Assembly: GCA_021792615.1 (NCBI GenBank)
Contig: JAJYUJ010000001.1
Location: 62,001-126,000, forward strand
Reading direction: 5' to 3'
Origin: a bacterium
Lineage (GTDB): Bacteria > JAMCPX01
DNA: 64,000 bases
Under the pieces are notes generated by a model. That model was not told the origin of the DNA. It did not search any database and saw nothing but the letters and a program-made list of their open reading frames with translations. Shown one piece after another: positions 52,019 through 58,591 of this stretch (positions within the stretch are counted from its first letter, which is position 1; each line of letters begins with the position of its first letter). A program made the translations under genes and the position numbers.

Positions 52019-53323
52019 TCAGGTCAGGAGGATTAACTGAATGTCCATGACATTCGTGCCCGTAGCACCCGTTTTCAGGAGTGCACCTGCTTTATCAAGC
52101 ACGGTATATGAGTCATTATTCAAAAGATATGTATTTGGATCCATACCTATTTTAGCTATACGGTTCGTGGTCGTGTTGTCAATAATTGCACCTGCTGCAT
52201 CCGTAGGCCCGTCTGTCCCGTCCGTACCGGCAGAGAGGAGGGTTATCTTCTGTTTCCCTGCGATATCCATGGCAAAAGCCAAAGCAAGTTCCTGGCTCCT
52301 GCCTCCTTTACCGCTCCCCGTAACCGTAACCGTTGTTTCCCCGCTGCTTATGAGGCAAACCTTCTTTCGGTTTCCCGTCTTCCGGCGTGCCATTTCATTC
52401 GCTATTGATGCGAGCACATGTCCCGCTTCCCTTGCTTCGCCATGCAGGCTTGTGGTCAGGATCACAGGGGTTATGCCCAATTTTAATGCCTGGATCTTGC
52501 ATGCGTCAACCGCTTTCCTGTTGTCTGCAATGATGATGTTTTGTACCTTCGACCGTACGGCGCGGTTGTCCGTAACATTCTTTTTCCGCTCAAGCCTTTT
52601 GATGACTGCTTGCGGAACTTTATCTCTTCCGTGGTAGCGATCGATAATTTCCAAAGCCTGCTGAGGAGTTGATGTGTCCTGAACGGTGGGTCCGGAACCT
52701 ATGATTTCAAGTTTATTCCCTATAACATCAGAAATGATCAAGGTTACTATTTCTGCGGGATAAAACATGCCGGCAAGTCTGCCTCCCTTTACCAGAGAGA
52801 GTTGTTTCCGTACGGTATTCAACTCATCAATACCGGCCCCGGACTTTAAAAGCAGTGAGGTTGTCTTTATCTTGTCACCGAGAGAAATACCATCCGGTGC
52901 AACGAGCAAAGACGATGCCCCGCCGGAAAGGAGCATAATGACGAGTGTGTGCCTGTCAACATCGCGAGCAAGCGACATCACACGTTGTGTTGCCCGGATA
53001 CCCTCTCTATCCGGCAGGGGATGGGATGCCTCTATGACCGCTATATGATTCAGGAGCCCTCCATAACCGTACTTTGTTATGACAACACCATCGTTGATGC
53101 GCCTGCCGAGGATTTCATCGAGTGCCCTTGCCATATCAAAGGATGCCTTGCCTGCGCCGAGAACGACAATCCTGTTGAAAGAGCTCAGCCGGTATTTCTT
53201 TCCTGCAATTCCGAGAGTATTATGGGTAAGTTTTACAACAGATCTTACCGCATCATAGCCCCGTACGGCATTGACTCCTGCGGCAAATATCTTTTTTACT
53301 ATTCTTGAATTATCCGGATTCAT
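52019..53323 (-). CDS. glycerate 2-kinase (MOFRL/DUF4147 family)
   Basis: A 434-residue protein with the GckA family layout: V-V-L-G-A-G-K-A-S near 52, H-P-L-P-D near 115, L-L-S-G-G-A-S-S-L (near 155), and the C-terminal MOFRL domain with S-S-G-E-T-T-V-T-V-T-G-x-G-x-G-G-R-S-Q-E and A-G-T-D-G-T-D-G-P. This class phosphorylates D-glycerate to 2-phosphoglycerate. It lies 42 bases behind two GntR-type regulators, which suggests that a sugar acid or glycerate is the signal for this operon. Confidence 0.9.
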   Translation of the reverse strand: MNPDNSRIVKKIFAAGVNAVRGYDAVRSVVKLTHNTLGIAGKKYRLSSFNRIVVLGAGKASFDMARALDEILGRRINDGVVITKYGYGGLLNHIAVIEASHPLPDREGIRATQRVMSLARDVDRHTLVIMLLSGGASSLLVAPDGISLGDKIKTTSLLLKSGAGIDELNTVRKQLSLVKGGRLAGMFYPAEIVTLIISDVIGNKLEIIGSGPTVQDTSTPQQALEIIDRYHGRDKVPQAVIKRLERKKNVTDNRAVRSKVQNIIIADNRKAVDACKIQALKLGITPVILTTSLHGEAREAGHVLASIANEMARRKTGNRKKVCLISSGETTVTVTGSGKGGRSQELALAFAMDIAGKQKITLLSAGTDGTDGPTDAAGAIIDNTTTNRIAKIGMDPNTYLLNNDSYTVLDKAGALLKTGATGTNVMDIQLILLT

Positions 53324-53365: not shown

Positions 53366-54085
53366 TTATACGAACGGATTCGCCTTGATCTCTTCCATGG
53401 TCCAGCTGAATATCTCAATAGCAATACGCTTTGCGGCCTCGCCGTCACCGCTTACAACCGCTTCGTACATCCTTTTGTGATTGCCATAAACAAGCTCCTG
53501 ATGGGCTGTCGATTTATAGATTTCCTTTCTTACTTCCTGGAGATGGGTTGAATCCATTTCTATAAGGGTATACAGCAGGTGAACGAAGACATCGTTCTGT
53601 GTCGCCCTTGCCATGGTAAGATGAAACTCATTGTCAGCCTTATACCACCTGTCAATGTCGCCGGATTCGGTATTTCTTTTCATGGCTTCGAGACATTGTG
53701 CGAGTTCTTTTATGTTTTGCGGCGTAGCCCGCTTGGCCGCGATATAAACAATCTGCGCATCGAGAGACTTTCTTACCTCGAACAGTTCATAGGCCCTGTG
53801 TGCGCTGCTATTTAAAAAGGCGCTCAGCGGTCCCTGGATCTCGCTGGAAGCAAGAGGCTTTACGAATATGCCCTTTCTCCGTATGATGTCTATCAGTCCC
53901 ATTGCATCCAATATGTTCAGTGCTTCCCTGAGCGTTGCCCGGCTGACATTGAATTTGTTTGCAAGCTCCCGTTCGACCGGTAGTTGTTCTCCCGGCTTTA
54001 ATAAGCCCGAATAGATGAGATCCCGGATCTGAGCGACTATCTCGCTGGATACCTTGAGAGGATGAATGGGTTTATACAGTGTCAT
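53366..54085 (-). CDS. FadR-subfamily GntR regulator
   Basis: The 239-residue protein has a winged helix-turn-helix (P-V-E-R-E-L-A-N-K-F-N-V-S-R-A-T-L-R-E-A near residue 45) and an FCD ligand domain with D-N-E-F-H-L-T-M-A-R-A-T-Q-N-D, where the Asp and His are metal/ligand positions of the family. FCD regulators usually sense small organic acids. It overlaps its paralogue by four bases and precedes the glycerate kinase. A GntR-type palindrome occurs at the ROK and dsrA promoters, and this protein is one of two candidates to bind it. Confidence 0.87.
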   Translation of the reverse strand: MTLYKPIHPLKVSSEIVAQIRDLIYSGLLKPGEQLPVERELANKFNVSRATLREALNILDAMGLIDIIRRKGIFVKPLASSEIQGPLSAFLNSSAHRAYELFEVRKSLDAQIVYIAAKRATPQNIKELAQCLEAMKRNTESGDIDRWYKADNEFHLTMARATQNDVFVHLLYTLIEMDSTHLQEVRKEIYKSTAHQELVYGNHKRMYEAVVSGDGEAAKRIAIEIFSWTMEEIKANPFV

Positions 54086-54798
54086 TTTGTTGTCGTAACT
54101 TCCCTTATCGCATTCCGTTTCATCAGTTGAAAGTATTTTTCTATTACCGGTTTTATTCTGCCGGGTTCTTTCGTTGTTAGTATAGTTGAGAATTCTTCCA
54201 TGATGGCTATGTATGCCTTTTGATCGGTATTGTTTGCGATGATGTCATCCCTTACAGCCAGTATAACCTCCATAAACAGCCCCTTCATGTTCGTAATGGT
54301 TCGATAAAAGAAAATATTGCCGGATAATTGTATGAGAAGCAGGAAAAGTTCAAGCTCGAACCACGTACCTTTCATCCCATTCGCAATACAGGATTTTATC
54401 CTTTCAACGGTGGTCTTTATGCTCTTTATATCATCTTCCGTTATTCTTGCCACAATAAGGGGGATTGAAGCGATCAGCATGAGTTCCATGAATTCGATAA
54501 GTTCTTTTGTTCTGTTGCTGTAAGGATTACTATTGATACTTGGTTGATAGGTGTTGTTTCTTCCGGTGTTTGGGCCGCAGACAAAGATTCCATCCCTATG
54601 CCGTACCTCGAGAATGCCCATGGTTTTAAGTATGCTTATTGCTTCCCTGACGGAAGAACGGCTTATTCCGAACTCAATCGCCAGCTTTCGTTCGGGAGGA
54701 AGTTTTGAACCTGCAGGCAGCTTACCTTCGACAAATTGTGTTTTGATATGGTCTACGATATTGCTGGTTACTTTTTCAGACTTAACAGCTTTTATCAT
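54082..54798 (-). CDS. FadR-subfamily GntR regulator with altered ligand domain
   Basis: A 238-residue GntR protein with a clear helix-turn-helix (P-P-E-R-K-L-A-I-E-F-G-I-S-R-S-S-V-R-E-A). The C-terminal part has the length of an FCD domain, but the usual D-x-x-F-H motif is replaced (W-F-E-L-E-L-F-L-L-L), so the metal site is probably missing. It is 27 bases behind the ROK gene. The two regulators may act as a heterodimer or respond to different effectors. Confidence 0.83.
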   Translation of the reverse strand: MIKAVKSEKVTSNIVDHIKTQFVEGKLPAGSKLPPERKLAIEFGISRSSVREAISILKTMGILEVRHRDGIFVCGPNTGRNNTYQPSINSNPYSNRTKELIEFMELMLIASIPLIVARITEDDIKSIKTTVERIKSCIANGMKGTWFELELFLLLIQLSGNIFFYRTITNMKGLFMEVILAVRDDIIANNTDQKAYIAIMEEFSTILTTKEPGRIKPVIEKYFQLMKRNAIREVTTTK

Positions 54799-54825: not shown

Positions 54826-55800
54826 TCAAATAGCAAAAATATCGTCATACAACCTGAGATCGTATGCCTTTGTGTAGCTATCCTTTGCAAGGTGCAAAAG
54901 ACCTATAAGACCCGCATCGTCCCCGAGTGTACTTCTTTTATAGACGATCCCGTTGAGCGGGAGCGAATACGCGCGGGCTTTCAGCGTTGATTCGACCGCA
55001 GGCAGGAAGAATTTTAATGCCTTGCTTACCTCCCCTGCAAAGATAATTGCTTCAGGACTTATTACATTTATGATCGTTGTCAGGGCAATGCCGAGATAAT
55101 TTCCCATTCTGTAGAATGCATCGAGAGCGGCACTGTCGGATTTTTGCGCAAGTTTGTACATCTCTTCTATGGTGATTTTGCTCGGCGAACGGATTTTTTT
55201 GTATTTATTAAAATATCTGATTATGGCATCGGAAGATGCATAAGACTCCAAACATCCCCTGTTGGAACACAGACATTTCCTTCCATGAGGTTCAATGATA
55301 ATGTGTCCGAGCTCCGAGGTGGAGCCGTCTTTGTTCCTGACAAGCCAGCCATTTACATATATTCCTGCACTTATCTTTTGCCCCAGCATGATAAGGATAA
55401 AATTTTTATAATTGGACGTGTAGCCGAGCTTATATTCGGCGAATGCCCGTACATTCGCTTCTGTTTCAACGATTACAAATTTCTTTAACTTTTTTGTAAG
55501 GCCTTCTTTTATGTTCATCCCGTTTAAAAGCGGTATGGCGGATGAACAGCCTATGCCTCCTTTCTTATAGTTGATTGTTGCCGGTACGCTGACAGCAATG
55601 GCATTAACATCGTCGGATTGTACGTCGGCCTTATTGAGCAGGGTGTAAAACCCAGTTTCCAGCAATTCCAGTAATTGGGAAGGAGACATGTCTTTCGGCA
55701 TGGTAATTTTATGAGTGTCCCGCTGTTTGATGTCTTCATCAGCAATGCGGAATCTTACCTGTTTTTCAGTTATTTCTATTCCGGTAAAATAAATAGCCAT
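54826..55800 (-). CDS. ROK family protein, probable pseudokinase/sensor
   Basis: The 324-residue protein contains the ROK zinc signature G-H ... C-L-C-S-N-R-G-C-L-E-S-Y near residue 170-195 and the late G-N-Y-L-G-I-A-L-T-T-I-I-N motif. Two kinase elements are changed: the N-terminal D-I-G-G-T-K phosphate loop reads G-I-E-I-T-E-K, and the catalytic Asp of N-D-A-N is Glu (T-E-A-N, residue 114). It has no DNA-binding domain, unlike NagC-type ROK repressors. It heads the operon with the two GntR regulators, so a sugar-sensing role is more likely than kinase activity. Inference. Confidence 0.75.
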   Translation of the reverse strand: MAIYFTGIEITEKQVRFRIADEDIKQRDTHKITMPKDMSPSQLLELLETGFYTLLNKADVQSDDVNAIAVSVPATINYKKGGIGCSSAIPLLNGMNIKEGLTKKLKKFVIVETEANVRAFAEYKLGYTSNYKNFILIMLGQKISAGIYVNGWLVRNKDGSTSELGHIIIEPHGRKCLCSNRGCLESYASSDAIIRYFNKYKKIRSPSKITIEEMYKLAQKSDSAALDAFYRMGNYLGIALTTIINVISPEAIIFAGEVSKALKFFLPAVESTLKARAYSLPLNGIVYKRSTLGDDAGLIGLLHLAKDSYTKAYDLRLYDDIFAI

Positions 55801-55835
55801 GTATACAATATATTATATAATATATTGATTATCAA
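55799..55835 (-). promoter_or_regulatory. promoter and GntR-type operator of the ROK operon
   Basis: On the minus strand TTGATA (55830-55835), 17 bases, TATATT (55807-55812), then GTATAC and the ROK start codon at 55800. The near-palindrome TTGTATACAT (55799-55808) overlaps the -10 box and the start codon. With six bases between -10 and ATG the mRNA should be leaderless. Confidence 0.65.
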
Positions 55836-55927
55836 CAGAAATCTTTAATAGTACAAACAAAACAGCCGGTTACCTGTTTTGTTCCAGAAAAGGAGAGGAG
55901 ATTATTGAATAAAAAAATAGATTTTAC

Positions 55928-55964
55928 TTGACATGGAATTCGATATTCTGTATATTGTATACAA
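55928..55964 (+). promoter_or_regulatory. dsr operon promoter with GntR-type operator
   Basis: TTGACA (55928-55933), a 17-base spacer and TATATT (55951-55956) form a near-consensus promoter. The perfect palindrome TTGTATACAA (55955-55964) overlaps the -10 box and the start site. It equals the core of the gluconate operator bound by Bacillus GntR. A matching site lies in the divergent ROK promoter. dsrA starts 42 bases downstream with AAAGGAGG. Confidence 0.7.
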
Positions 55965-56005: not shown

Positions 56006-57211
56006 ATGGCAAACGAAACAAAGAAAACAAGCACACCATTGCTTGATGAACTGGAAAAGGGCAAATGGCCAAGCTTTGTTAAGGAAATCAAGAAGATGGC
56101 TGATAAAAACCCAAGGGCGAAGGATTTATTGGGGCAGCTTGAACAATCGTATAAGGACAAAGTTACCCATTGGAAACATGGAGGCCTCGTTGGAGTAAGG
56201 GGATACGGAGGCGGAGTAATCGGCAGATATTCCGATTCACCGGATAAATTCCCGAATGTTGCACATTTTCATACCATACGTATCAATCAGCCGTCGGGGT
56301 GGTTTTACACAAGCAAGGCGTTACGCGAAATATGTGATGTGTGGGAACAGCACGGTTCCGGGCTTACCAATATGCACGGTTCAACCGGTGACCTTGTGTT
56401 ACTGGGAACATCAACCGATAACCTTGAACCTATATTTACAAAACTAACAAACAAAGGGTGGGACCTTGGAGGTTCGGGCTCGGTTTTAAGAACACCAAGC
56501 TGCTGTGCTGGTCCGGCACGCTGCGAATTTGCATGTTACGATACCCTTAATTTGACCTACGATCTTACGCAGGCCTATCAGGATGTGCTTCACAGACCCC
56601 AGTTCCCGTATAAATGGAAGTTCAAGATGTCCGGCTGCCCCAACGATTGTGTGGCAAGTGTTGCGAGGGCAGATATGTCCATTATCGGAATATGGAAGGA
56701 CGATATACAGGTAGACCAGGAAGCGGTGCGTGCCTATGCAAAAAGCGGCGTCGATGTACAATCGGAAATCTGCGATCTTTGTCCTACGAAATGCATGTCA
56801 TGGGATGGCAAGGACCTTAAAATAGTAAACAAATGGTGTAACAAATGCATGCACTGTATCAATGCTATGCCCAAGGCATTAAGACCCGGCAAGGAAAGGG
56901 GTGCTGCAATACTGATAGGTGCTAAGGCCCCCATTCTCCAGGGTGCGCAGATGTCCTCAGTTCTTGTTCCATTTATGAAGATGGAACCTCCTTATAAAGA
57001 GCTGAAAGACCTCGTGGAAAAGATATGGGACTTTTGGGGAGAGTATGGAAAGAACAGGGAAAGAATTGGAGAATTGATACAGCGGGTCGGCATGGGACAA
57101 TTCCTCGAGGCATTAGAGATTGAACCAAAGCCGCAGATGGTAGCAAATCCAAGAACAAATCCATTCATCTTCTACGAAGAGTACTTCGAAGAAGAAGGTG
57201 AACAAAAATAG
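56006..57211 (+). CDS. dsrA: dissimilatory sulfite reductase subunit alpha
   Basis: DsrA (401 residues from ATG 56006) pairs with DsrB to reduce sulfite at a siroheme-[4Fe-4S] site. Visible are C-A-G-P-A-R-C (C-x5-C) and G-C-P-N-D-C (C-x3-C), the ligands of the coupled cluster, and an inserted ferredoxin domain with C-D-L-C-P-T-K-C and C-N-K-C-M-H-C. The sequence H-R-P-x-F-P-Y-K-W-K-F-K is a DsrA hallmark. The frame is open to 55928, but AAAGGAGG in front of ATG 56006 fixes the start. The cysteine set is complete, so the enzyme should be active. First gene of the dsr operon. Confidence 0.96.
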
Positions 57212-57229: not shown

Positions 57230-58312
57230 ATGGAATCAGTTCAGGCAGAACAAAGAAGAACGGATATCGGTCCGCCGAAGTATGACCAGTTCTTACATCC
57301 GGTTATCAAAAAAAATTATGGAAAGTGGAAATATCACGAGATCGTAAAGCCGGGCGTCCTCGTTCATGTATCAGATACCGGAGACAAGATTTACACCGTT
57401 CGTATGGGATCCCCGAGATTGATCAATGTAGATACCATAAGAATGGTTTGCGATCTGGCGGATAAATATTGTGAAGGATATCTTAGGTTCACGAGCAGAC
57501 ACAATGTTGAGTTTCTGTTGGCGGATCAAAGCAAGATCGATCCTCTTATCAATGAGATTGAGGCAAATGGTTACCCTGTTGGCGGTACGGGCAAGAGTAT
57601 TACCAATATAGTCCATACACAGGGCTGGGTACATTGCCATACACCGGCAACCGATGCATCGGGTATCGTGAAGGCGGTCATGGATGAGTTGTACGATTAT
57701 TTCAAGACCATGAAACTGCCCGCAAAGCTCAGGATAGCACTTGCATGCTGCTTGAACATGTGCGGTGCCGTTCACTGCTCTGATATAGCCATACTCGGTG
57801 TTCACAGAAGGCCGCCAAAAATACTGCCGAACCTGAACAAAATCTGCGAAATTCCGACGACCGTTGCCGCATGTCCAACGGGTGCCATTGCACCGGCGGT
57901 CGTTGACGGTGTTCAGACCGTCGAAGTCAACGAGGAAAAATGTATGTTTTGCGGAAACTGCTACACCATGTGCCCTGCAATGCCCTTAGCGAATTCATTG
58001 AATGACGGTGTTTCCATATGGGTCGGAGGCAAGGTTTCCAACGCACGGCATGCACCTATGTTTTCAAAGCTGGCAATACCCTATTTACCGAACAACCCGC
58101 CAAGATGGCCCGAGGTGGTAAATGCGGTAAAAAATATCGTTGAGGTGTACGCAAAAGATGCAAAGAAATATGAAAGAGTTGGAGAGTGGATTGAGAGAAT
58201 CGGGTGGCCAAGGTTCTTTAGTATGACGGGCATAGAATTTACCAAGTACCACATAGATGACTATAGATTCGCTGCTACAACCTTCAATACGTCAACCCAT
58301 TTTACGCTATAA
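57230..58312 (+). CDS. dsrB: dissimilatory sulfite reductase subunit beta
   Basis: The 360-residue DsrB carries [13 protein letters not shown] and [15 protein letters not shown], the siroheme and cluster ligands, and a ferredoxin domain with [15 protein letters not shown]. It forms the alpha2-beta2 core with DsrA and hands the sulfur intermediate to DsrC. It follows dsrA by 18 bases with AAGGAGG before its start. Length and motifs are as in known sulfate reducers. Confidence 0.96.
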
Positions 58313-58324
58313 GGGGGTGATTAT

Positions 58325-58591
58325 ATGGCAGATTTAAGCGGTGTACCCATGGATGAACTCCAGAACGAAATATTCAAGATGGTTCAGGAAGACATGGGCA
58401 AAAAACAGTTGAAAGCAAAAGATATAACAAATGCGATGATCCAGAAATTTGGCGAGGAAAAATGCTCAAAAGAGAGCTGTAAGGAAGCCATCAGAACACT
58501 GATAGATTCCGGTAAACTTGTATACGGATATTTCGGTGGCAGTAGTTCGATTCAGGTTCCCCATAAGGAGGGAGCAGAGCCTGACAAGTAA
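58325..58591 (+). CDS. dsrD: DsrD, activator of dissimilatory sulfite reductase
   Basis: An 88-residue protein of winged-helix type, rich in Lys/Glu, directly behind dsrB. Residues such as L-Q-N-E-I-F-K-M and the L-V-Y-G-Y-F-G-G-S-S near the end fit DsrD. Published work shows that DsrD stimulates DsrAB activity; its presence is widely used as a marker for the reductive direction. Its start has GGGGGTG seven bases upstream. Coupled closely to dsrB (12 bases). Confidence 0.9.
   Translation: MADLSGVPMDELQNEIFKMVQEDMGKKQLKAKDITNAMIQKFGEEKCSKESCKEAIRTLIDSGKLVYGYFGGSSSIQVPHKEGAEPDK

Follow-up and report, generated by a model that had tools for sequence, protein, structure and literature searches.

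The palindrome TTGTATACAA (often GTATATTGTATACAA) is quite probably the operator through which P0009, a GntR protein, controls a regulon joining carbon oxidation to sulfate respiration. The window, the whole 64,000-nucleotide stretch of DNA that was analysed, holds two of the sites, one at dsrA and one at a ROK-family sugar-kinase-like gene (Table). Judged by genome comparison, both belong to a regulon that extends through the phylum, which is uncultured and comprises a single family. Because a common operator lies at the sulfite-reductase operon, at the first operon of sulfate reduction and at genes of the citric acid cycle, one regulator probably controls both processes. That regulator is probably encoded elsewhere in the genome and previously undescribed.

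The dsrA promoter consists, in order, of TTGACA, 17 nucleotides, TATATT, TTGTATACAA, a ribosome binding site and the ATG at 56006. An earlier note on this DNA had described these boxes, together with TTGATA-N17-TATATT and TTGTATACAT before the ROK gene, each palindrome overlapping its -10 box, and the reading holds. As it also claimed, TATATTGTATACA is common to the two promoters at equal offset; both sites are kept in relatives. At 55800 the A of the ROK start codon falls inside the palindrome, 7 nt past the -10 box, which makes a leaderless ROK mRNA probable. Start codons about 7–15 nt past the predicted -10 box were seen for ROK, P0009 (L172 1687-1705) and tauE (L007 1492-1510), which suggests that all three transcripts are leaderless or near-leaderless and that the operator sits at their start codons. 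Between the dsrA and ROK promoters lies a perfect 10-nt inverted repeat, AACAAAACAG-N8-CTGTTTTGTT (55856-55865 and 55874-55883). It is kept in G003 (L046 1473-1500) and is not obvious in G001, G002 or G008. This repeat could be an operator for P0001 or P0002, whose genes are present in some genomes only. The operon itself contains dsrA and dsrB, both matching their equivalog families, as well as dsrC and dsrM. An 88-aa ORF at 58325-58591 occupies the position of dsrD; its match to DsrD is weak (Pfam E 0.12), so this ORF does not prove the direction of the Dsr pathway.

Table. Features of the dsrA and ROK promoters and their operons, in coordinates of the window
Feature	Position	Strand	Remark
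-35 box TTGACA of dsrA	55928..55933	+	within invariant block ATTTTACTTGACA (55921-55933)
-10 box TATATT of dsrA	55951..55956	+	17 nt after the -35 box
dsrA operator palindrome TTGTATACAA	55955..55964	+	core of 21-nt block ATATTCTGTATATTGTATACA (55943-55963), unchanged across 7 genomes
ROK operator TTGTATACAT	55799..55808	-	overlaps the ROK start codon
-10 box TATATT of ROK	55807..55812	-	17 nt after the -35 box
-35 box TTGATA of ROK	55830..55835	-	
dsrA, dissimilatory sulfite reductase alpha	56006..57211	+	TIGR02064
dsrB	57230..58312	+	TIGR02066
ROK-family sugar-kinase-like gene (P0003)	54826..55800	-	regulon target
GntR gene of the ROK operon (P0001)	54082..54798	-	GntR domain; FCD below Pfam cut-off; unlikely to be the regulator
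GntR gene of the ROK operon (P0002)	53366..54085	-	FCD, LldR/PdhR-like; not the likely regulator
glycerate 2-kinase-like gene of the ROK operon	52019..53323	-	MOFRL/DUF4147

dsrA was found in 7 genomes of the window's family, and all 7 keep the 21-nt block. The phylogenetic footprint, a check set beforehand, thus did not find the palindrome absent upstream of dsrA in relatives. Ribosome binding site aside, the aligned promoters share two invariant blocks, ATTTTACTTGACA and ATATTCTGTATATTGTATACA, and the spacer between them is mostly variable. The -10 box makes up 6/21 bases of the second block, so part of the conservation at dsrA is due to it. In L050 and L051 this block extends to a perfect dyad, TATTCTGTATA-TTG-TATACAGAATA. 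The longer dyad was dropped as a general operator, since acn, lpd and atoB retain TTGTATACAA alone. In the ROK promoter TATATTGTATACATG is kept in G000 to G003 and TATATTGTATGCATG in G008, where the operator is degraded (TTGTATGCAT). A paralogous ROK gene (G000:C56), which served as a control, has no operator site. Outside the family the core is absent from the 400 bp upstream of dsrA at about 70 further dsrA loci, so the operator at dsr is lineage-specific.

Exact TTGTATACAA occurs 11 times in the window's own genome against about 6 expected from order-3/4 Markov models, a mild enrichment that is weak evidence alone. 8/11 sites lie upstream of genes and 3/11 in coding sequence. In the 8 relatives together 62 sites were counted, as opposed to 9 with the reversed control. 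The pattern TATTGTATACA gave 16 strand-hits in the window's own genome and none when reversed, with about 3 expected from Markov models. On the genome-wide frequency check, then, the palindrome with its conserved flank stands above chance. Several TATTGTATACA matches are intragenic, such as the one where an enoyl-reductase-like gene common to several genomes begins (MYTIDL), and were set aside. The case for the operator rests on position and orthology, the count of the exact 10-mer being modest.

The eight genes behind exact TTGTATACAA are dsrA and those for citrate synthase, aconitase, thiolase, lipoamide dehydrogenase, TauE, a PPDK/PEP-synthase-like protein and an MFS protein. Searching the same genome with TATTGTATACA adds sat and P0009. 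The operator precedes gltA (citrate synthase) in 9/9 genomes and nuoA in G007. Recurrent targets in the relatives are thiolase, acn, lpd, tauE, the PEP-synthase-like gene, a multihaem cytochrome gene and a dsrMK-like pair. The sat operon comprises sat-aprBA-qmo (qmoC was identified). Its promoter carries the operator in 5/5 dsr-positive genomes in which sat was found and in 0/2 dsr-negative genomes. The sequence TTTACTTGACACAAAATAAATATATTGTATATTGTATACAT varies little among G000, G002, G003 and G008, and G001 has the site too. The two dsr-negative genomes, G006 and G007, possess sat with no operator at it; before gltA, acn and P0009 both retain the operator. Neither has a clear dsrA match (G007 has one weak match), a soft absence because most relatives are incomplete MAGs. 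The lack of the operator at sat in genomes without dsrAB provides a natural control.

Several of these promoters have further features. Of the sat loci of G006 and G007 (L266, L267), that of G006 shows an apparent remnant of the -35 region. A second DsrM-like/DsrK-like pair, whose -35 box is closely preceded by the operator, is found in G003 and G004 (L197 854-2281, L202 1581-3008). In the thiolase promoter (L008, L131, L180, L184, L195, L217) a conserved palindrome like TGAATAATCATTCA lies just downstream of the operator. It reads TGAACAATCATTCA in L180 and is likely the operator of a second regulator. Sites of the TATTGTATACAGTATACAA type occur near response-regulator genes (L299 near 1501, L301 near 1501, and similarly L296 of G004); the one in L299 stands just before genes for a small membrane protein and a TauE-like protein.

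The gene for P0009, an FCD-type GntR protein of 224 aa, lies outside the window (G000:C67:76204-76875). In P0009 the N-terminal GntR winged helix-turn-helix (PF00392) scores 64 bits against a cut-off of 27, and the C-terminal FCD domain (PF07729) 89.1 bits against 24.3. The protein is present in 8/9 genomes, and G005 has a second copy, 69% identical (L255, G005:C121:1780-2451). Three GntR-family proteins are encoded in G000. The only one found in the incomplete assemblies of G001 and G002, and in G006, is the P0009 orthologue, and none was found in the 84%-complete assembly of G008, though the operators are kept there. In every genome where the P0009 promoter is present it carries an autoregulatory site, TGTATATTGTATACAT or a close variant, or TTGTATACAA itself in G007.

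The FadR-subfamily consensus is TKGT/ACMA with 2–3 nt between GT and AC (PMC4494728). The operator, TTGT-AT-ACAA, is of this type, with a spacing of 2 nt, and by motif and protein family P0009 is its predicted reader. Within the FadR subfamily, Arg28 and Ser40 correlate with TGGT/ACCA, and Pro40 with its avoidance (PMC4494728). By alignment P0001 has Arg28/Ser40, P0002 Arg28/Thr40 and P0009 Ala28/Pro40, so P0009 fits TTGT/ACAA to the extent that an amino-acid/base code of this kind, a correlation, can indicate. The mapping of positions 28 and 40 is our own, anchored in part on what we take to be the contact residues of E. coli FadR.

Relatives of P0009 (E <= 1e-25) occur in 45/386 genomes. At 22 loci outside the family, the 150 bp upstream of the regulator's own gene contain exact TTGTATACAA in 4/22 and a version with at most one mismatch in 9/22. 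The corresponding means in 300 dinucleotide-preserving shuffles were 0.01 and 0.3, with maxima of 1 and 3. At the loci with at most one mismatch, the recognition helix of all nine regulators contains SRTP, and position 28, as we read the alignment, is never Arg. Family f44 also has the exact palindrome before citrate synthase (L340, L348) and nuoA (L346, L350), and G315 has it before monomeric isocitrate dehydrogenase (L338). Total site counts in the genomes outside the phylum are near control, so the regulon there looks small. The best explanation is that P0009 is an old regulator of the TCA cycle and complex I which in this phylum would also govern sulfate respiration.

The position of the palindrome differs among promoters. 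The -10 box begins 4 nt before it and overlaps it at dsrA, sat, gltA, ROK and the cytochrome gene, and lies inside it at P0009, tauE and acn. At thiolase (atoB) the palindrome overlaps the -35 box. Overlap with the -10 or -35 box suggests repression. At the PEP-synthase-like gene, the dsrMK-like pair and lpd the palindrome lies 6–7 bp upstream of the -35 box (farther at lpd of G007), an arrangement that would suit activation.

A fixed offset from the -10 box in five promoters, with the -10 box inside the site in three others, is also what one would see if TATATTGTATACA were a feature of a promoter class, that is, a -10 box followed by a favoured sequence or start region, and no repressor operator at all. 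The presence of the same sequence upstream of or across the -35 box, at lpd, the PEP-synthase-like gene, the dsrMK-like pair and atoB, leaves this reading a very slim chance, as does its recurrence in promoters of P0009 homologues from other families. It is also improbable that a regulator of some non-GntR family reads the palindrome. The assignment to GntR is made from sequence, and G008 has sites with no GntR protein found in its 84%-complete assembly, but the autoregulatory sites of P0009 are conserved within the phylum and recurrent across families, and the motif agrees with the FadR-subfamily consensus.

The earlier note had proposed that both sites are bound by a GntR protein of the ROK operon, which would couple dsr to a sugar-acid or glycerate signal. 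A FadR/GntR-type operator common to dsr and the ROK operon is supported by our results. P0001 and P0002 are encoded beside one of the sites, and control of the operon in which they lie is common among GntR regulators, yet there are relatives that retain both operators and lack both genes. P0001 and P0002 occur in G000 and G004, and G003 has a fragment of P0001; neither is present in G002 or G008, two genomes that still have the ROK and dsrA sites. In G002 the ROK gene is followed directly by the glycerate kinase gene with no GntR gene between them, and in G008 by unrelated genes. Both operators are kept in G001 and G002, where the P0009 orthologue is the sole GntR protein found. Arg28 in P0001 and P0002, and Ser40 in P0001, point to TGGT/ACCA. 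Most regulon targets are TCA or sulfur genes and not sugar-acid genes. A TCA-linked signal is more likely than the one proposed, and control by P0001 or P0002 is very unlikely.

For P0009 as the regulator, we infer the sign of regulation and the ligand as follows. Where the operator overlaps the -10 box, bound P0009 should exclude RNA polymerase, and it would block transcription in this way at dsrA, sat, gltA, ROK and the cytochrome gene. P0009 would also repress its own gene. A TCA-linked ligand, possibly a tricarboxylate, would free it from the operator. Where the operator sits upstream of the -35 box, at the PEP-synthase-like gene, the dsrMK-like pair and lpd, P0009 may act as an activator. 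The carbon-oxidation arm would include citrate synthase, aconitase, thiolase, lipoamide dehydrogenase and, in one genome, complex I. The sulfate-respiration arm would include sat-aprBA-qmo, dsrAB with the downstream dsr genes, the dsrMK-like pair, TauE and the multihaem cytochrome. The ROK operon would be a further target and not the source of the regulator. The fullest form of the model, which we hold tentatively, is that a P0009 family reading TTGTATACAA across phyla has here been extended to sat-apr-qmo and dsr, acts as both repressor and activator, senses a tricarboxylate and forms one switch for electron supply and electron acceptor.

Control of dsrAB in sulfate reducers is little described, and the cited regulators of the pathway, HcpR and Rex, concern sat and apr. 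In the present case a single operator and a single candidate protein would tie sat-apr-qmo, dsrAB and the TCA cycle together across a phylum. The work also proposes a function and an operator for a GntR lineage present in several other bacterial families. The papers searched describe no GntR regulator of dsr, as the earlier note had supposed, and none of gltA or other TCA genes with this operator motif.

HcpR, a CRP/FNR protein of Desulfovibrio, is predicted to repress sat and apsAB through sites that cover the -10 box, and dsrAB was reported absent from its regulon (PMC545781). Its predicted sites at sat thus resemble ours in position. HcpR belongs to another protein family and has the motif TTGTGAnnnnnnTCACAA, which was not found at dsrA or sat; what covers the -10 box at dsrA, sat and gltA is TTGTATACAA/T. 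Rex represses sat in Desulfovibrio vulgaris, according to the passage of PMC11451228 that cites Christensen et al. 2014. It is NADH-regulated and likewise of another family, not GntR.

The nearest PDB relative of P0009 is the distant 7xp0/7xp1 (phmmer, E 1.1e-23), which we take to be PmiR of Pseudomonas aeruginosa, a GntR/FCD protein. Both proteins have the GntR-FCD architecture. In the alignment P0009 differs at the usual FCD metal site, where one Asp is replaced by His and one His by Asn. Given this distant similarity, and with no NCBIfam equivalog at cut-off, P0009 is not a PmiR-type equivalog. PmiR senses 2-methylisocitrate, a metabolite near the TCA cycle, according to the title of a cited paper. 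P0009 would extend to sulfate respiration, over which we know of no control by PmiR. As the earlier note pointed out, TTGTATACAA is also the core of the gluconate operator of Bacillus subtilis GntR, which shares with P0009 the FadR subfamily and the 2-nt GT-AC spacing. The Bacillus protein serves gluconate use at a local operon, whereas P0009 would govern a multi-operon regulon of the TCA cycle and sulfate respiration.
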